Source: Methanosarcina barkeri 3 (lineage in GTDB: Archaea; Halobacteriota; Methanosarcinia; Methanosarcinales; Methanosarcinaceae). From it: a DNA stretch of 64,000 nt. Below the pieces are notes generated by a model. That model was not told where the DNA came from and did no database searches. It saw only the letters and a program-made list of their open reading frames with translations. The translations under genes and the position numbers were made by a program. The stretch spans positions 4,030,001-4,094,000 of the forward strand of contig NZ_CP009517.1 of the NCBI RefSeq assembly GCF_000970305.1, given 5' to 3'. Of this stretch, positions 7,823-41,261 are shown in pieces (the first letter of the stretch is position 1; every line of letters starts with the position of its first letter).

Positions 7823-8462
7823 TATTCTACTCCTTAATTTTTCATTTACATTTTATGCAAAAAATGATAATACCGTGAAAATACGTCAATTTATAAAATG
7901 TCTCTTTTTAGTCACAATGTTGTAAAAGTATTCGAATTAGAAAAAATATATTAATGAAAGAATCTAATTGAAGTTGATTAGCTTGAAATAACAGCATTTG
8001 AGCACAAAAATGTAAAATTGAGATATCTAAATTCAGAGAAAAATTTAGAAAAAAGTTAAGAAATCAAATAGTGAATGTCGTTATTGAAATCATGAGTATG
8101 AAGAAAATTTCCAATTGTAGATAAATAGTAATTTCAAACCCAAAATTACTTCTCTTAATCAAACTATTTGAAAATTACTTGATTTTCGGAGCACAAAAAT
8201 AGATCTGTAATTTTATAGATAAGGAATAAAACTATTTTTGGGATAAACTCATCCAAATTAGATATAAATTAGGAAAGAAGATAGACGCTAATAGCATGCA
8301 AAGCACTGAAAAATTGCGTCCTTAAATTTTTCTCCTACGATTTCTAGTGTTGATAGTGGTTTGGGATATTTTTGGAAATTCCCATACCTTCTATCTAAAT
8401 ATAGACTTTTTTGATTTAAACTTTGGTTTTCTTAGTTTAAACTTTGACTTTTTTGGTTAAAT
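7823..8462. other. AT-rich gap upstream of surface protein
   Basis: This 640-base gap lies between the start of the surface protein and the stop of seryl-tRNA synthetase, both on the minus strand. It must hold the surface protein promoter. It is very AT-rich and has no coding signal that I can support. A directly repeated CAAAGTTTAAA-like stretch near 8405-8455 follows serS and may take part in its termination. Confidence 0.4.
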
Positions 8463-9803
<1,341 letters not shown>

Positions 9804-32685: not shown

Positions 32686-32925
32686 TAGAAGGTATTTCCA
32701 GGCAGGACATTTCCATCAAGTCTTCTCGTCTACTAATAAACATTTATAAGTAGATTAGATCTTCAACCAAAATTCAGTAAGCTAATCCTACAAATACTCT
32801 TTTTGAACTACTTTTAGTAATTGTTTTCTTTTAGTACAAAGCTTACCGACAACGGTAATTTTTCATTACCAACTCAAAATTTCCGATATCAGTCAATAAA
32901 TAATATAAAAAGCATATTTATAATA
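32686..32925. repeat. Intergenic repeat copy 1 with GGTAAT/ATTACC hairpin
   Basis: This is the first of three similar intergenic copies. Shared strings are GGTATTTCCAGGCAGGACAT with TCAAGTCTTCT at the left, and AAGCTTACCGACAACGG with AACTCAAAATTTCCG at the right. GGTAAT at 32854 pairs with ATTACC at 32865 across 5 nt. It precedes the first DUF7344-like gene. Confidence 0.65.
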
Positions 32926-33368
32926 TAACCTATAAATTTATATGTATACTTTAACATTAAAAATGGACACTGAATCTTCTGTTCACCTAGGTTTGTAATT
33001 TAAAGTCCGCGAAAATAACGAAAAGAATAACACATTTCATACAAATCTAGTGATTATTTGTCTATAAATTAATATTTTATAGCATAAAAATTATACAATA
33101 AATAGATAAAAAAAGCATGAAATATGTGAATAAACGAAACACAAAAGAATGTCGTGTCCGTGAGTTACTGATTTCTGAAGCAGTGTTCTAAATTTGTTGT
33201 AAATTTTAAGTCACATTTTTGTATACTGTATCTGAAACTGGTTTACCACGATTGAATTTTCAATTTAACAACTTTTAAAAGATTTGTTAATTTATAGAAA
33301 TTTCAGTACACTGCCGACCCCAAAAGAGTAGTATTATATGGTAAAAATGGGAAAATGGAGAGATATTA

Positions 33369-33941
33369 TTGCGCTTGATTTTCTTAAAAATTAACACTTA
33401 TTATCGAAAAGTAAATAAATTATTTAGTCCTCAGAAAACTGTACAAACACAATCGCAATTATCAAAGAGCGATATTTTTGGAGTACTCCAGAACAATCGA
33501 AGAAGGCTTGTGCTGGAACTCCTCCGCAATCAGGGAGGCCAGAGTGTACGCTCCCTATCCGAAGAGATAGCACATGTTGAATCCCAAGCCGAAGAGCCAA
33601 AAAGGAGTGTTAGAAAAAGTATATATGTCTCACTGCTTCAGACACATATTCCAAAAATGGAAAACCTGGGAATCATTACCTACAATAAGGAGAAGGACAC
33701 AGTGGAACTTCTCCAAGCTTCCCAGGACTTTGACATCTACCTAGAAACTGTTAATAAAGGAGACATCCCCTGGAGCCAGTTCTATCTTGGCCTGAGCATA
33801 CTTGCCTTTATCAGCAGCTTAATTGTATTCATAGGAGTGATTAACTGGATCTCAAGTTATAAGTGGATGTTTTTCACAAATGGTCTTTTTATGGTAGCCT
33901 CAATAGCTTATAGACGCCACTCCCGCAAACTTGAGAAATGA
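33369..33941 (+). CDS. Membrane-anchored winged-helix protein, DUF7344-like, paralogue A
   Basis: This 190-residue protein has a winged-helix domain at about residues 33-120. It begins LSKSDIFGVLQNNRRRLVLE, then a recognition region QSVRSLSEEIAHVE, a HIPKMENLGIITYNKEKDTV wing and two C-terminal transmembrane helices (about 140-160 and 167-182). It is the archaeal DUF7344-type layout, often beside surface-protein genes. The start is TTG; GGAGAG 7 bases upstream is conserved in the paralogue, which also starts with TTG. It shares roughly two thirds of its residues with paralogue B. I infer a membrane-tied regulator, perhaps of the TasA-like operon nearby. Confidence 0.75.
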   Translation: MRLIFLKINTYYRKVNKLFSPQKTVQTQSQLSKSDIFGVLQNNRRRLVLELLRNQGGQSVRSLSEEIAHVESQAEEPKRSVRKSIYVSLLQTHIPKMENLGIITYNKEKDTVELLQASQDFDIYLETVNKGDIPWSQFYLGLSILAFISSLIVFIGVINWISSYKWMFFTNGLFMVASIAYRRHSRKLEK

Positions 33942-33975
33942 ACGCATTATAAATAGCGTAGACATTACTGTCTTA

Positions 33976-34100
33976 GAGCCTATCCGAAAAGTGGTTACCT
34001 GCTAGAACTTTTAAATATACATCATGCAAAACCGGAACAGATGCCGGGATATTTAGACCTATTGCAATTTATATGCATTACTGACTTTTCGGATAGGCTC
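33976..34100. mobile_element. MITE with IS5-like ends after paralogue A
   Basis: Perfect 17-bp ends GAGCCTATCCGAAAAGT and ACTTTTCGGATAGGCTC bound a 125-bp non-coding element. TTA flanks both sides (33973-33975, 34101-34103), fitting the 3-bp TNA target duplication of the IS1031/IS5 group. It begins 34 bases after the paralogue A stop codon. Confidence 0.8.
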
Positions 34101-34217
34101 TTAATCAACTTTAGTCTTTTTTAAGATAATGGATAAATTTTTGACAACATATATTAAAAAATTAAAGCATTTTCAATTTTTTATTTTTTTATATATTCTC
34201 TCTTACCTCATGCATTG

Positions 34218-34460
34218 GAGTATTTCTAGAACGGACATTTACTTCAAGTCTTCTGATCTACTTAACATACTTAAACAAACATTTAATCTTTACATAAAAT
34301 ACAGTAAAATTAAGCCTTTACAAACTTGGTAACGTACTATTATTTGAATTAATTTATGATTAACTTGTTTTTTTCCTTAAAGCCTATTGATAACGGTAAT
34401 TTATCGTTACCAGCTCAAAATTTCTGTTAATTAACCAATAACTAATACTAAAGAAGCATA
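34218..34460. repeat. Intergenic repeat copy 2 with GGTAA/TTACC hairpin
   Basis: The second copy matches copy 1 along its length (GTATTTCTAGAACGGACAT, TCAAGTCTTCTGATCTACT, TAACGG and CAGCTCAAAATTTC). Its hairpin is GGTAAT-TTATC-GTTACC at 34395-34411, so the outer stem is kept while one pair becomes a T-G wobble. It lies upstream of paralogue B. Confidence 0.65.
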
Positions 34461-34855
34461 ATTATCATTGTAATTATGATACATTTTGTGATACATTTTA
34501 TGATACGTTTTATGATACATTTTATGATACATTTGTAGTTAGTTAAGTCTGTTAATATAAGAATAACTACTACAATTATCGATTCTTTTCGTTTACCTGA
34601 TGGAGTTTATAGAATATAATAAAAATGGTAAATATATTGTAAGAGGTTACATAAGTAATATAAATATGATATAAAATAACATAAAGTAACATATTTTATT
34701 TCTATATAGCATAAAAAATGCGAATAAATCCGAGTCCTATTGATAACTAAAACCAAGTCATTCATGAATGAAAAAGAAGGTTGTGTCCGTGAGTTACTGA
34801 TCAATTCCGAAAAAGAGAGTAAATTTTCTATATTTGAAAAATTGGAGAGATATTC

Positions 34856-35425
34856 TTGTGTTTACTTCTTTCAATAACTCAGGCCCATTACCAAAAGGAA
34901 AACACATGTAATCCTCAGATAACTGTACAAACACAGATGCAGTTAACAAAAAATGATATTTTCGGAGTTCTCCAGAATGACAGGAGAAGATGTGTCCTGG
35001 AAATCCTTCGAAGTCAAGGAAGGCAGAGTGTACGCTCACTGTCCGATGAAATCGCCCGGATTGAATCCCAAGCCGAAGAACCAAAGGAGAATATTAGAAA
35101 GAGCATATATGTTTCATTGCTCCAGACACATATCCCAAAAATGGAAAGTTTGGGAATCGTTGCCTATAGTAAAGAACAGGACACTGTAGAACTTCTCCCA
35201 GCTTCTCGGAACTTTGACATTTACATGGAAACTGTTAAAAACGGAGACATACCCTGGAGCCAGTTCTATCTTGACCTGAGCATTCTTGCCGTTGTCGGCA
35301 GCCTTATGATATTTTCAGGGTTAATCAAATGTATCTCAAGTTTTCAGTGGATATTCTTCACAATTGGAATTTTTATGGCTACTTCAATAGCCCATATGTA
35401 CTACGTCCGCAAACTTGGAAAATGA
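34856..35425 (+). CDS. Membrane-anchored winged-helix protein, DUF7344-like, paralogue B
   Basis: This 189-residue paralogue of the upstream gene has the same order: winged helix (LTKNDIFGVLQNDRRRCVLE, HIPKMESLGIVAYSKEQDTV) and two C-terminal membrane helices. The TTG start and the GGAGAG ribosome site 7-8 bases upstream are kept. Differences concentrate in the first 30 residues and the membrane part, while the DNA-binding core is nearly the same. The two copies could therefore recognise one site while sensing different membrane signals. Downstream, 37 bases after its stop, lies a MITE of the same end type as after paralogue A. Confidence 0.75.
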   Translation: MCLLLSITQAHYQKENTCNPQITVQTQMQLTKNDIFGVLQNDRRRCVLEILRSQGRQSVRSLSDEIARIESQAEEPKENIRKSIYVSLLQTHIPKMESLGIVAYSKEQDTVELLPASRNFDIYMETVKNGDIPWSQFYLDLSILAVVGSLMIFSGLIKCISSFQWIFFTIGIFMATSIAHMYYVRKLGK

Positions 35426-35462
35426 GCTAAATACTAGGCAAATACGTGTTCTTTAATTATTT

Positions 35463-35559
35463 GAGCTCATCCCAAAACCAATTTCTTTCCAAATATCATA
35501 CTATTTTCATGTTAGAAATTAAAGCAGTTATTCAAAGTTCAAGGTTTTGGGATAGGCTC
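35463..35559. mobile_element. MITE with IS5-like ends after paralogue B
   Basis: Ends GAGCTCATCCCAAAACC and GGTTTTGGGATAGGCTC bound a 97-bp element. The tips belong to the same GAGCCTATCC type as at 33976, but the inner sequence differs. No clear target duplication is seen. Confidence 0.7.
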
Positions 35560-35608
35560 AAGAATAAATGTCAAAGATCATTTTATTCTTTTTTAGTATC
35601 TTAAGCAG

Positions 35609-35840
35609 AAGGTCTTTCCGGATACGACAGTCACCTCAACTTTTCATTTACCTTCCAGAACATTAAATAAGTATTTTGATCTTAACCAAGGATCTTTTTT
35701 TCCTACAAGCAACTTTTCAGAATTAACTGTTGATTAACTTCTTTTTCAACACAAAGCTTACTGATAGTGGTAATTTTACATTAACAGCCCAAAATTTTCG
35801 TTAAGTAACCAATAACTAATACTAAGGAAGAATGATAAGG
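35609..35840. repeat. Intergenic repeat copy 3, upstream of TasA-like operon
   Basis: The third copy matches best at its right half: ACAAAGCTTACTGATAGTGG, AGCCCAAAATTTTCGTTAAG and CCAATAACTAATACTAA (the last shared with copy 2). The hairpin is partly broken (GGTAAT and ATTAAC at 35769-35785). Here the next gene is the TasA-like protein and not a DUF7344 paralogue. Confidence 0.6.
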
Positions 35841-36000: not shown

Positions 36001-36513
36001 TTGGTTAATAAAAAAATAATATTGAGTATACTTATTATAGGCTGTATTGCCACCGTTGCAGGCGCAGGAACTTGGGCATACTACACAAGTTCTGCAACTA
36101 GTTCAGGAAACAGTTTTACTGCAGGAAATATGAATATTAGCGTAACTCAAGAAATTGGTAATGTGTCGATAAAGCCAGGTGATGAACTTGGTGATAAGAC
36201 TATTGTTGTTAAGAATGGAGGAAGCATTGCCATAGGAAAAATAAACCTAAACTATAAACCCAGTAATAATCAGCTCAGCCAGCATATTGAATTTAGCAGT
36301 GTGGATATTGACGGCAAACAAATAGCTAAAAAAGGGGTACTTTCAGATCTTAGTAGTCAAACCAGTGTATATGAACCAGAAAAACCTATTCAACCTGGTA
36401 ACAGCTTTGAGATTACATTAAATGATTTGAAAATGGACGATAAGGTTACAGAAGGTCAGGGTCAAACAAGCACTTTGGTTATAACACTTGAGGCAGAACA
36501 AGTGCATAAATGA
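36001..36513 (+). CDS. TasA/camelysin-like secreted fibre protein
   Basis: This 170-residue protein has a signal segment (residues 5-25) followed at once by WAYYTSSATSSGNSFTAGNM. That is the N-terminal signature of TasA/CalY (camelysin) proteins, which depend on a SipW-type signal peptidase. The mature part is beta-rich and acidic, with no membrane anchor. TasA forms biofilm fibres in Bacillus, and archaeal bundling-pilus subunits share this fold. A SipW-type peptidase lies two genes downstream. The start is TTG with AGGAGG about 8 bases upstream. I infer a fibre or surface-coat subunit. Confidence 0.75.
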   Translation: MVNKKIILSILIIGCIATVAGAGTWAYYTSSATSSGNSFTAGNMNISVTQEIGNVSIKPGDELGDKTIVVKNGGSIAIGKINLNYKPSNNQLSQHIEFSSVDIDGKQIAKKGVLSDLSSQTSVYEPEKPIQPGNSFEITLNDLKMDDKVTEGQGQTSTLVITLEAEQVHK

Positions 36514-36726: not shown

Positions 36727-38706
36727 ATGAGAACATCTAATAAGATTATTTTTTTGGGATTGATATTTGTTTTTCTCATCTTCACGTGTAGCACTTTACC
36801 TTTTTCAGATACATCCGCTTCTTTCAGTGATACAAAACATACGAATGCTGAGATCACCGCAGGTCTCTGGGAAACCCCAGCAAGCATGATTGGATTATCG
36901 GATCCTAATCTTACCGCAAAAAGCGAAAAACTCAATAGAACTGTTAATAGTGCAAAAGGAGATAATGATTCAACATCCACTTACGAAAATACCTTAGCCG
37001 AAAATTTTTCTAATAATGTAAGTTCATTTCTGAATAACATAAGTTCAGCAGAAAATCTGACTAATAATTCCTCTAAAGCAGTAAACAGAACAATTACCCT
37101 GACAGAAGCCAGTGAAAACAACATGAGTTCAAGCATGGACTTGAGTTCAAGCATGAGCTCAAGTTCTGGTTCCACAACAACTATAGATAAAGATGAGGAG
37201 ATTATTCCGGTTGCAAACTTTAGAAGCAACGTAACTGAAGGTTATACCCCCTTGACTGTACAGTTTACTGATCTTTCGGAAAATGTAACCGAATGGAACT
37301 GGGAATTCGGAGACGGAGATACTTCAAGTGAACAGGATCCAGTGCATACTTACTCTGCAACAGGGACCTATGAAGTCAGCCTGATTGCAAACAATGAAAA
37401 TGGTACAGATTCAAAGCTTGCCACAATAACCATTCATGAACAACCTGATGGAGCCATTCCGGTTGCAAACTTCACCAGTAATGTAACAGATGGTTTTGCT
37501 CCTCTGACAGTTCAGTTTACAGATCTCTCGCAAAATGCAACTGAATGGGACTGGAACTTTGGAGATGGAGATACTTCAACTCAGCAAAATCAGATGCATA
37601 CCTTCTCAGTAGCAGGAAATTATAACGTTAACCTGACAGTAAGCAATAAAAATGATACAGGTTCAAAGCTTGCCACAATAAACGTTTATGAACAAACTGC
37701 AGTCATTCCGGTTGCAAACTTCACCAGTAATGTAACAGATGGTTTTGCTCCTTTGACAGTTCAGTTTACAGATCTCTCGCAAAACGCAACTGAATGGGGC
37801 TGGAATTTCGGAGATGGAGATACTTCAACCGATCATGACCCAGTTCATATTTACTCTGCAGCAGGAAACTATAGCGTTAATTTGACAGTAAGTAATGAAA
37901 ATGGAACAAGTTCCAAACTCGCCACAATAACTGTTCAAAAGCAATCTGCTGGAACACTTCCAGTTGCAAACTTCAGCAGTAATACAACTGAAGGTTATGC
38001 TCCTTTGACTATACAGTTTACTGATCTTTCGGAAAATGCAACTGAATGGAAATGGGATTTTGAAAATGGAGAAATTTCTACAGATCAGAACCCAGTGCAT
38101 ACTTTTTCAGAAGCAGGAATTTATAAAGTTAACCTGACAGTAAACAACGAAAACGACACTAGTTCAAAACTTACCAGTTCAAAACTTAACACAATAACCG
38201 TTTTACAACCCACGTTTCCGGTTGCAAATTTCACCAGTAATTTAACTGAGGGTTATACTCCTCTAACAGTTCAGTTTACTGATCTTTCGGAAAATGCAAC
38301 TATGATAAACTGGAATTTTGGAGACGGAGATACTTCAACTGAGAAAAATCCGGTACATCTTTACTCAGCAACAGGAAATTATAACGTTAACCTGACAGCA
38401 AATAATGAAAACGGCACCAGTTCAAAACTTGCCACAATAACCATTTTACAACCCATACTTCCGGTTGCAAACTTCACCAGTAATTTAACTGAGGGATATG
38501 TTCCTTTGACAGTTCAGTTCACAGATCTTTCGGAAAATGTAACTGAACGGGAATGGGATTTTGGGGACGGAAGTACTTCAAGAGAGCAGGAACCTGTGCA
38601 TACTTTTTCAGAAGCAGGAAATTATAGCGTTAACCTGACCGCAGACAATGATAATGGCACGAGTACAAAAACGAGCAAGATTATTGTGAATAAAATTCCA
38701 AGGTAA
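36727..38706 (+). CDS. Secreted six-PKD surface protein with SipW-type signal
   Basis: This 659-residue protein has a signal segment (residues 6-25), then FSDTSASFSDTKHTNAEITA, the same TasA-like post-signal pattern as the gene before it. A Ser/Asn-rich, sequon-rich linker (about 60-155) leads to six PKD domains of about 85 residues. Each begins PVANF and carries a W-x-FGDGDTS-type motif (in the fourth the motif is WDFENGEIS). The repeat DNA is similar across copies, so units can recombine. No C-terminal anchor is seen. I infer an adhesive or cross-linking partner of the TasA-like fibre, processed by the SipW-type peptidase just downstream. Confidence 0.85.
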   Translation: MRTSNKIIFLGLIFVFLIFTCSTLPFSDTSASFSDTKHTNAEITAGLWETPASMIGLSDPNLTAKSEKLNRTVNSAKGDNDSTSTYENTLAENFSNNVSSFLNNISSAENLTNNSSKAVNRTITLTEASENNMSSSMDLSSSMSSSSGSTTTIDKDEEIIPVANFRSNVTEGYTPLTVQFTDLSENVTEWNWEFGDGDTSSEQDPVHTYSATGTYEVSLIANNENGTDSKLATITIHEQPDGAIPVANFTSNVTDGFAPLTVQFTDLSQNATEWDWNFGDGDTSTQQNQMHTFSVAGNYNVNLTVSNKNDTGSKLATINVYEQTAVIPVANFTSNVTDGFAPLTVQFTDLSQNATEWGWNFGDGDTSTDHDPVHIYSAAGNYSVNLTVSNENGTSSKLATITVQKQSAGTLPVANFSSNTTEGYAPLTIQFTDLSENATEWKWDFENGEISTDQNPVHTFSEAGIYKVNLTVNNENDTSSKLTSSKLNTITVLQPTFPVANFTSNLTEGYTPLTVQFTDLSENATMINWNFGDGDTSTEKNPVHLYSATGNYNVNLTANNENGTSSKLATITILQPILPVANFTSNLTEGYVPLTVQFTDLSENVTEREWDFGDGSTSREQEPVHTFSEAGNYSVNLTADNDNGTSTKTSKIIVNKIPR

Positions 38707-38853: not shown

Positions 38854-39891
38854 ATGAATAAAAAAGGAGTTCTTCAAGTAGCGATTGTCCTTGTCATTGC
38901 GATTTTTATGTTCAAGGCCTTGACTCCGTTCATTACAGGATCAGAGAAAGCTTTTATAGTATTAAGCGGGAGCATGACACCCCTAATGCTACCTGGAGAT
39001 ATAATAGTTGTAAAATCGGTAGACCTGAATGAACTTACTGTTGGAGACATCTTAACTTTTCGGGATCCTGGAGGTAAACCTAACACCTACGTAACTCATC
39101 GGATCATCGCCTTAAAAAAAGATAAGGAACCGATTTTTAAGACAAAAGGGGATGCAAACAATGCAGAAGATAACTTCAACGTGACCGCATCAAAAGCTGT
39201 CGGACAAATGGTCTTTGTCATCCCATTTGTAGGCTACCTACCGACAATGGTAAAAAATAAAAATGTTTTTTTATTTATGATCATATTGCCTGCAAGTTTA
39301 ATTATACTTGGTGAAATATGGAATATAATTCTTTATAGTAGCCCTCAACATGCCAGAAAAATAGAAAGAGAACGCAGAAAAACAGCGAAGAGAACTTCTT
39401 ATGAAGTTAAAGGAAAGAAACTAATAGCACTCATTCTTATAAATGGGCTTATTTTTACAGGAATAATTACACAAAGCCTGGGTGAGAACGGGCCTGTAAT
39501 TCTAGAGAAAGAAAACACTGTAGAAAACTCAGAATTTCTTTCTATGGTATATGTTTTCACGCCTGAGGACTCGAAGCAGACACTTGAGATTGATCGCTGG
39601 TATGGGGTGATTTCCCAGAACAATGAAACTCAAGTTATTGCATCGGAAAATACCCCTGCAAAATTGAACACTGTACCTTATATTCTGCCTGTTTTCTGGA
39701 TACTAGAACTTACAAAAGTGAATCCCTATCTTCCTGTAGCTGCCGAAATTGTAGTTTATGCCTCAATTTTTACACTAATACTACTTCCTATATGGTACAG
39801 GAAATCTACAATTGGAAGGCGTAGGAAAAGGATTAGATTTTACCGAATGTTTGCACAGTGGAAGCGAACTCTCCGTTTTTTAAATTTTTAA
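38854..39891 (+). CDS. SipW-type signal peptidase I
   Basis: This 345-residue peptidase is of the archaeal/ER (SipW) class. After an N-terminal membrane helix (about 8-26) comes the catalytic Ser in VLSGSMTPLMLPGDIIVV, then the His in YVTHRIIAL; the bacterial Lys is replaced by His, as in SipW. A second helix pair lies at about 137-160 and 188-205, followed by an extracellular segment and a last helix (about 290-310) with a basic tail. Typical SipW proteins have about 190 residues, so the C-terminal 180 residues are an extension. GGGAA precedes the ATG. Substrates are probably the two proteins encoded upstream. Confidence 0.85.
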   Translation: MNKKGVLQVAIVLVIAIFMFKALTPFITGSEKAFIVLSGSMTPLMLPGDIIVVKSVDLNELTVGDILTFRDPGGKPNTYVTHRIIALKKDKEPIFKTKGDANNAEDNFNVTASKAVGQMVFVIPFVGYLPTMVKNKNVFLFMIILPASLIILGEIWNIILYSSPQHARKIERERRKTAKRTSYEVKGKKLIALILINGLIFTGIITQSLGENGPVILEKENTVENSEFLSMVYVFTPEDSKQTLEIDRWYGVISQNNETQVIASENTPAKLNTVPYILPVFWILELTKVNPYLPVAAEIVVYASIFTLILLPIWYRKSTIGRRRKRIRFYRMFAQWKRTLRFLNF

Positions 39892-40199: not shown

Positions 40200-41261
40200 A
40201 TGATGTTGATTCTTTGCGGGTTCTGGACTTACGAAACTTCAAGGGCCGTCTATGAAGACAAAGATGAAGTAGTTACTTTATATACACATCACGGGTCCTA
40301 TACTTATACGGTACCTGTAACAAAGGAAAATCCACTCTACGGAAAAGGAACCACGCTTAAATTGGGAATGCCTGCGTATTATTTTGCCGTATCTCCCACT
40401 GTTGACATGTCATTCACTTACAATCTTGAGGCTAATGATTCTTCTGATATTAGAGGAAAGCTACAAACAATAGTTGTTGCAACTGATAAGGGAAAATCTG
40501 AGACTGATGAATGTTATGAAAATAATGGATCTGAAACTGAGGAATCAGGTAAAGAAGAGAAAATTTTCTGGCAGAAAGTATTTCCTTTGAAATATAAAGA
40601 AGGTACTGAAACCTGGACTGGAACATCCGTAACCAGAAACTTTTCCCTTAACGTGTCCGAAATTCACTCAATAGTTAAAGACGTTCAGGAACAGCTAGAA
40701 TGCTCAGATGACGCAACGATAGAAATTGTAAATCGCGTCAGCTATACCGGAAAAATAAACGGAGAGAACGTTCAAGGTACAAAAGATTTTGTTATACCTC
40801 TGGTAATAAGTTCTTCATACTATCAGATGCCTGAAGAACTGGAATTCAGTCAGGACACTAATGCAACTAAAAAGATAAGTGTCAAAAATTCCCCTTCACT
40901 GTCAACCGTTAAGATACCTTTTTTCTTATTTCTGCTTAACCTGGTTTTAGTTGGGGTTACTCTACTCTGTGTGAAAACAGATAAAATCGAGCCAAATTAT
41001 ATTGAAAAACTAGAAAAGGAACGTAGTCGCGAACCTTTTAAGGAGTTTGTCAGCAAAGGCAAGCTTCCCGAAAATGTAAGTTCCCTTATCAAAGTTGAGA
41101 TAGGTTCCCTCCAGGGACTTGTAGACGCAGCTGTTGATATGAATTCAAGGGTTATTTATGATTCAGAATCAAGGATATATTTCATGATTCATAGTAGCGT
41201 GCTGTACATTTTCTTTGATACACCAGAGAGAGAAAACAAAAATCTATCAAACTTAGATTGA
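40200..41261 (+). CDS. DUF5305-like membrane protein of the SipW locus
   Basis: This 353-residue protein has an N-terminal membrane helix (MMLILCGFWTYETS and upstream residues). A beta-rich extracellular domain of about 230 residues with YTYTVPVTKENPLYGKG follows, then a second helix at about 250-272 and a cytoplasmic tail of about 75 residues. This is the layout of DUF5305 proteins, which occur beside SipW-type peptidases in archaea. The ATG at 40200 has no ribosome site and would cut into the first helix; the frame stays open upstream to 40083, so the real start may be a non-standard codon near 40125. Role unknown; possibly a membrane partner in export or assembly. Confidence 0.7.
   Translation: MMLILCGFWTYETSRAVYEDKDEVVTLYTHHGSYTYTVPVTKENPLYGKGTTLKLGMPAYYFAVSPTVDMSFTYNLEANDSSDIRGKLQTIVVATDKGKSETDECYENNGSETEESGKEEKIFWQKVFPLKYKEGTETWTGTSVTRNFSLNVSEIHSIVKDVQEQLECSDDATIEIVNRVSYTGKINGENVQGTKDFVIPLVISSSYYQMPEELEFSQDTNATKKISVKNSPSLSTVKIPFFLFLLNLVLVGVTLLCVKTDKIEPNYIEKLEKERSREPFKEFVSKGKLPENVSSLIKVEIGSLQGLVDAAVDMNSRVIYDSESRIYFMIHSSVLYIFFDTPERENKNLSNLD

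Follow-up and report, generated by a model that had tools for sequence, protein, structure and literature searches.

A putative operator array of a DUF7344 winged-helix protein upstream of a TasA-type fibre operon in Methanosarcina barkeri 3

Main finding

The window, i.e. the whole 64,000-nt stretch of Methanosarcina barkeri 3 analysed here (NZ_CP009517.1, positions 4,030,001 to 4,094,000), contains three intergenic copies of an upstream module with a 17-bp inverted repeat. Judged by sequence comparison, this dyad is very probably the docking site of the neighbouring DUF7344 protein and an on/off switch of the fibre genes. The best explanation overall, in which we have high confidence, would be a promoter-proximal operator array which is bound by the neighbouring DUF7344 protein and controls a TasA-type fibre operon. 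Binding, dimer formation, the sign of control and the signal are what we infer from the sequence, conservation, spacing, phasing and co-occurrence of the sites. A Pfam domain of unknown function thereby gains a probable function, a DNA target and a regulated operon.

Upstream module and site array in the window

Three intergenic copies with long shared stretches had been noticed in a preliminary description of this DNA, and they were verified by alignment. Copy 1 (32686..32925) precedes the regulator gene W1, copy 2 (34218..34460) precedes the regulator gene W2, and copy 3 (35609..35840), which has the ancestral position, precedes the TasA-like gene. All copies and all sites within them are given for the plus strand. 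A 43-nt segment is 81% identical between copy 1 (32692-32734) and copy 2 (34220-34262). A 117-nt core of copy 2 (34346-34462) matches copy 3 (35720-35836) at 79% and copy 1 (32805-32921) at 61% without gaps, or at 80% over 90 nt with gaps; copy 3 has mainly this core in common with the other copies. Since copies 1 and 2 are alike in parts of the leader as well as in the following genes (W1 and W2 share 300 nt at 79%), they are regarded as copies of a larger unit.

A BLAST search of the whole 4.56-Mb genome found the module at E < 0.01 at these three places only. A second fibre cluster of the same genome, at 2.83 Mb, has a more distantly related version of the core in front of it. This second locus (L039; G000:C1:2820000-2838000) comprises a DUF7344 winged-helix gene (8688-9230 in locus coordinates) and the box (8250-8381), both on the minus strand, together with a TasA-like cluster. 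An identical regulator protein is present in M. spelaei.

The inverted repeat was found in every copy as described earlier. Its best form is RKTAAY-N5-RTTAMY, and it belongs to an array of three to four such sites (A, B and C, with D in other species) which ends at a TATA box. Copy 2 is the fullest, with site A (ATTAATTTATGATTAAC, 34348..34364), site B (GGTAATTTATCGTTACC, 34395..34411) and, 31 bp from B, site C (GTTAATTAACCAATAAC, 34426..34442), the right arm of which lies at the expected BRE position. It is followed by the weak TATA-box-like sequence TAATACTAAAG (34443..34453), a putative assignment made from the TATA position in relatives. In copy 3, site A (ATTAACTGTTGATTAAC, 35722..35738) and site B (GGTAATTTTACATTAAC, 35769..35785) are accompanied by a slightly altered site C (GTTAAGTAACCAATAAC, 35800..35816), with a putative TATA-like site at 35817. 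Copy 1 has lost A and C, and only site B is intact (GGTAATTTTTCATTACC, 32854..32870), a perfect 6-5-6 dyad and the single occurrence of exact GGTAAT-N5-ATTACC in the 4.56-Mb genome. TATA boxes and transcript starts were taken from reading of the sequence. The earlier grading of the repeat as exact in copy 1, wobble in copy 2 and partly broken in copy 3 is correct as a description of the letters but gives no functional ranking: the copy with the perfect site B is the one without A and C, and copy 2 is the fullest. Elsewhere in the genus, the usual left arm is GTTAAT and the usual right arm is ATTACC or ATTAAC; thus, copies 2 and 3 are typical representatives rather than degraded sites.

Regulator genes and fibre cluster

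W1 (33369..33941, plus strand) starts with TTG after a ribosome-binding-like site GGAGAG, belongs to the DUF7344 family (PF24035, E=5e-24) and has one or more C-terminal transmembrane segments by hydropathy. W2 (34856..35425, plus strand) was assigned to the same Pfam family. The scores against PF24035 are 84.8 bits for W1, 83.5 bits for W2 and 57-68 bits for the regulators of Thermococcus and Archaeoglobi, with a cut-off of 27.8. In the AlphaFold model of W2 (pLDDT 81.7), helices 42-54, 59-71 and 78-98 are followed by a wing at 102-113 (strands 102-105 and 110-113), i.e. a predicted winged helix with residues 78-98 as the recognition helix, and membrane helices are predicted at 134-154 and 162-188 from the model and from hydropathy. 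The Foldseek matches of this model, none of which reached E<0.001, are mostly winged-helix folds including E2F-DP, AntR and LmrR; a PDB sequence search found no relative. An alignment of 27 regulators from three groups has 15 invariant columns, nine of which (K82, S83, Y85, S87, L88, Q90, T91, H92 and P94) fall into the predicted recognition helix. In this view, a conserved reading head is matched by a conserved site. No publication on DUF7344 was found in the literature searched.

The target of copy 3 is a gene for a TasA/camelysin-like fibre subunit with a SipW-type signal peptide (36001..36513; PF12389, E=9e-9; TIGR04088). It is followed by genes for a PKD-repeat surface protein (36727..38706; Pfam), a SipW-like signal peptidase (38854..39891; PF10502; TIGR02228) and a DUF5305 protein (40200..41261), all on the plus strand. 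The cluster is of the TasA/SipW kind, as its subunit bears a SipW-type signal peptide and one of its genes codes for a SipW-like peptidase. The TasA/SipW operons of Bacillus and the archaeal bundling pili have the same combination of a TasA-like subunit and a SipW-like peptidase (PMC9674648), but in the literature compared neither a DUF7344 regulator nor such an operator is described for them (PMC9674648).

Distribution within Methanosarcina

For 31 Methanosarcina genomes, a DNA search and a regulator search were performed and the intergenic stretches were aligned into one element. The regulator gene is present in 13 genomes. A box model built from sequence only (R1) matches exactly these, 13/13 versus 0/18 without regulator, and its strong matches all adjoin the regulator gene. 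A composite pattern of sites B and C matches the same loci only, plus one chance site with two mismatches. The element lies upstream of the TasA-like gene and beside the regulator gene, and it points to the TasA-like gene even in genome G019, where this gene is divergent. The search in other Methanosarcina had been suggested in the preliminary description, which named loss of the box beside a retained regulator as evidence against an operator; such a state was found at no regulator-TasA locus of the genus. Three Methanosarcina junctions between regulator and PKD gene which have no TasA gene showed no strong dyad. In genome G030, the fibre cluster between the box and a CbiO gene has been lost, and regulator and box are kept. 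A transposase-like gene is located there between the regulator and a decayed upstream box (L042 9435-9560, 12958-13060).

A second TasA-like/SipW cluster in genome G009 (L126; G009:C1:1699000-1718000) contains neither a DUF7344 gene nor the box and is a natural control with different regulation. Its first gene is a DUF5305 gene.

In the genus consensus, site A (RTTAAY-N5-RTTAMY) is followed 46-49 bp on by site B (GKTAAY-N5-RTTAMC) and, 31 bp after B, by site C (GTTAAY-N5-AATAAC) and a TATA-like sequence, e.g. TATCTTAAAA or TATATAAAA. Site B starts 48 bp before the TATA box, as read from the alignment. Several Methanosarcina have a further dyad, site D (GGTAAT-N5-ATTAAR), about 50-77 bp past the regulator stop codon (L044, L043, L045-L048). 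It lies some 200-230 bp before site A, a distance which could permit looping.

Box and regulator lie in one cassette and move together, so their joint loss within the genus does not count as independent evidence. The comparison was therefore extended to Archaeoglobi and Thermococcaceae.

Conservation in Archaeoglobi and Thermococcales

In Thermococcales and Archaeoglobi, genes of fibre type (DUF1102) and a signal peptidase gene likewise come after the relatives of the regulator, and the same dyad is found in the space that separates the DUF7344 gene from the fibre gene. With a matrix derived from Methanosarcina only, 16 loci of both groups gave a combined shuffle p=1.7e-16; several of the 12 Archaeoglobi loci match weakly. 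The sampled haloarchaeal DUF7344 genes have no such dyad.

The regulator was found in 85 of the 94 Thermococcaceae genomes searched. The pattern RKTAAY-N5-RTTAMY had been widened after the first six loci outside Methanosarcina and was then applied unchanged to 72 Thermococcaceae loci, four of which (L179-L182) are the same genes as the earlier-seen L120-L123. Downstream stretches and upstream controls were taken at fixed length. An exact dyad is present in 61/72 stretches downstream of the regulator, where 0.05 are expected from shuffles, and in 0/72 upstream controls; as the loci are mutually related, these counts do not represent independent events. When similar stretches were removed, 43/52 loci still had the exact dyad. 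Some Thermococcaceae loci have no exact dyad.

When all spacings were counted, a spacer of 5 was enriched both outside Methanosarcina (8 versus 0.07 expected) and inside (30 versus 0.16), and it was found 44 times in the 52 non-redundant Thermococcaceae loci. Arm pairs at spacers 4, 6 and 7 were absent. Smaller peaks at larger spacers are pairings between neighbouring dyads. The distance from dyad to TATA box in Thermococcaceae is 36-38 bp (52 cases) or 47-48 bp (8 cases) in 60/61 loci, two spacings which differ by one helical turn. Mostly 21 bp after the first dyad (start to start), a second, weaker one stands directly before the TATA box.

These spacings bear on the possibility that the dyad is instead recognised by another regulator which acts genome-wide, such as NrpR. 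The NrpR site of M. mazei reportedly reads GGTAA-N6-TTACC, and NrpR is said to act on nitrogen genes and to belong to another protein family. The arms of the dyad are similar to GGTAA/TTACC, but the spacer between such arms is 7 here (5 between 6-bp arms) instead of 6, with 0 cases at neighbouring spacers. Exact GGTAA/TTACC pairs in these regions all have spacer 7, and the one N6 pairing is mismatched and overlaps an N7 site. Moreover, the array is found beside the DUF7344 gene only and in 13/31 genomes, which does not agree with a core nitrogen regulator, and the dyad is common to Thermococcaceae in the same gene context. NrpR is a known repressor in M. mazei (PMC11456600). An NrpR site was rejected because of spacer and distribution, and a genome-wide regulator of this type is improbable.

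The position of the dyad is also relevant to an RNA element (hairpin, leader or small RNA) or a system like sRNA162/171, which would be in line with the long leaders downstream of the conserved block. In M. mazei, sRNA162 is flanked by an 'ArsR' gene and a hypothetical gene, and all three were duplicated as a group (PMC3510493). That locus is alike in its regulator, sRNA, hypothetical gene and duplication, but it disagrees in its published occurrence among species: sRNA162 has been reported from M. acetivorans and M. barkeri (PMC3510493), and the putative M. acetivorans genome G001 has neither box nor regulator. The dyad is located 36-48 bp upstream of the TATA box and hence outside the transcript, RNAalifold predicted no pair over 23 sequences, and the arms lack RNA-like covariation (15 A-C versus 2 A-T outer pairs). 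An RNA element was rejected for want of an Rfam match, a consensus fold and covariation, and its probability is considered very low.

The proposal that the repeat is the operator by which the winged-helix paralogues control the fibre operon is strongly supported by comparison. Co-occurrence is complete in the genus, the same arms, 5-bp spacer and TATA phasing recur next to this regulator in two further groups of archaea, and the box is absent from the regulator-free fibre operon.

Duplication and self-regulation

The paralogues W1 and W2 group as sister sequences (98/94 support), and each has an orthologue in M. spelaei. The ancestral order would have been regulator-box-TasA, and tandem duplication of the regulator with its downstream box would have produced regulator-box-regulator-box-TasA. 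This order is present in genome G009, and the window has one extra box in front. The module was duplicated along with the genes, as would be expected if the box were a functionless by-product of recent tandem duplication; the dyad, however, has been retained ahead of fibre genes in several archaeal groups, although the DNA around it has diverged. This conservation already contradicts a by-product, which is the least probable of the explanations considered.

The duplication would have placed the same promoter before W1 and W2 and thereby created a self-regulatory loop in this lineage, an example of how duplication of a regulator plus its operator may lead to autoregulation. Self-regulation of the paralogues had been anticipated, and it stands in so far as the box precedes both regulator genes here and in the sister species. 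It does not hold as a general feature: nearly all other loci have no box upstream of their only or first regulator gene, nor do the Thermococcaceae upstream controls, and the conserved circuit therefore runs from the regulator to the fibre operon. The self-loop appears to be a derived side-product of the tandem duplication and not the core of this circuit.

Mode of control and comparison with known systems

In the proposed mechanism, the RKTAAY-N5-RTTAMY sites are bound by the adjacent membrane-anchored DUF7344 winged-helix protein, probably as one dimer per dyad. The array lies immediately ahead of the fibre operon's core promoter. In Methanosarcina, C abuts the TATA box, B starts 48 bp before it and A is 46-49 bp further up; the B-C distance of 31 bp corresponds to approximately three helical turns. 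Bound regulator would most likely assist TBP/TFB onto a weak BRE/TATA. Provided that the operator assignment is right, an activator is slightly favoured by analogy. Exclusion of TFB from the BRE, i.e. a repressor, has on the same premise a somewhat smaller chance, and it was kept as an alternative since the proximal site covers the BRE position.

Taken as an explanation in its own right, a DUF7344 operator with repressor action is a serious but less probable candidate. The proximal dyad (site C; RGTAAN-N5-AATTTAC in Thermococcaceae) lies at the BRE position directly before the TATA box, and archaeal repressors can block TFB or TBP sterically (PMC5512572). The weak TATA-like sequences, multiple upstream sites and helical phasing, in contrast, fit activators like EarA and Ptr2 in their published description (PMC5512572), and ArnR acts as an activator (PMC6396743).

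The closest known analogues of the putative DUF7344 regulator appear to be ArnR and EarA, both archaellum regulators. ArnR/ArnR1 of Sulfolobus acidocaldarius likewise form a paralogue pair with an N-terminal HTH and two C-terminal transmembrane helices and control a surface filament (PMC6396743); W2 has two such helices by model and hydropathy. ArnR boxes are two inverted repeats with the same 5-bp spacer but another sequence (TCGAC-N5-GTCGA; PMC6396743), and the arms here are RKTAAY/RTTAMY. ArnR has HAMP and sensor domains and an archaellum target (PMC6396743), whereas the DUF7344 protein is associated with a TasA-type fibre operon. Pfam detected no HAMP or sensor domain in W2, and the model has about 20 residues between wing and first transmembrane helix. 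The likeness of ArnR and DUF7344 is one of layout, with no sequence relationship shown.

EarA of Methanococcus and Thermococcales is also a winged-helix protein, and its site is present in one to four copies immediately before the BRE of an operon for a surface appendage (PMC5512572, PMC10665913). EarA is not described as membrane-bound in the passages considered, its motif is of the 6-bp TACATA type, and its target is the archaellum (PMC5512572, PMC10665913). The present sites differ from an EarA regulon in sequence, dyad symmetry and fibre target. In the position, repetition and phasing of the sites and in the weakness of the core promoters, the present system resembles activation by EarA and Ptr2 (PMC5512572, PMC10665913).

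On a broader scale, we lean towards DUF7344 being an ancient archaeal one-component regulator whose membrane anchor would sense an envelope signal and whose 6-5-6 array, phased to the TATA box, would control TasA-type fibre (biofilm matrix) operons. The circuit would be conserved from Thermococcales to Methanosarcina and would provide the first regulator assigned to archaeal TasA-like fibres. Operators conserved over such distant archaea are unusual; owing to this conservation, tractable Thermococcus strains offer a direct test of both the protein-DNA code and the way in which archaeal TasA-like fibres are controlled.

Additional observations

In-frame stop codons occur in a few Thermococcaceae regulator genes (G496, G440, G464 and G486); decay or phase variation is possible. 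The long leaders of W1 and W2 share a 30-nt block with a GTGTCCGTGAGTTACTGAT core (33143-33172 and 34772-34801, 93% conserved), far downstream of the boxes. The leader of W2 also contains a 12-bp unit (TTATGATACATT) four times in tandem (34474-34534). Two short elements, 33975-34101 after W1 and 35461-35561 after W2, have terminal inverted repeats (18 bp perfect and 19 bp at 89%; DNA fold z -5.8 and -4.3) and look like MITEs related to GAGCCTATCC-ended insertion sequences.
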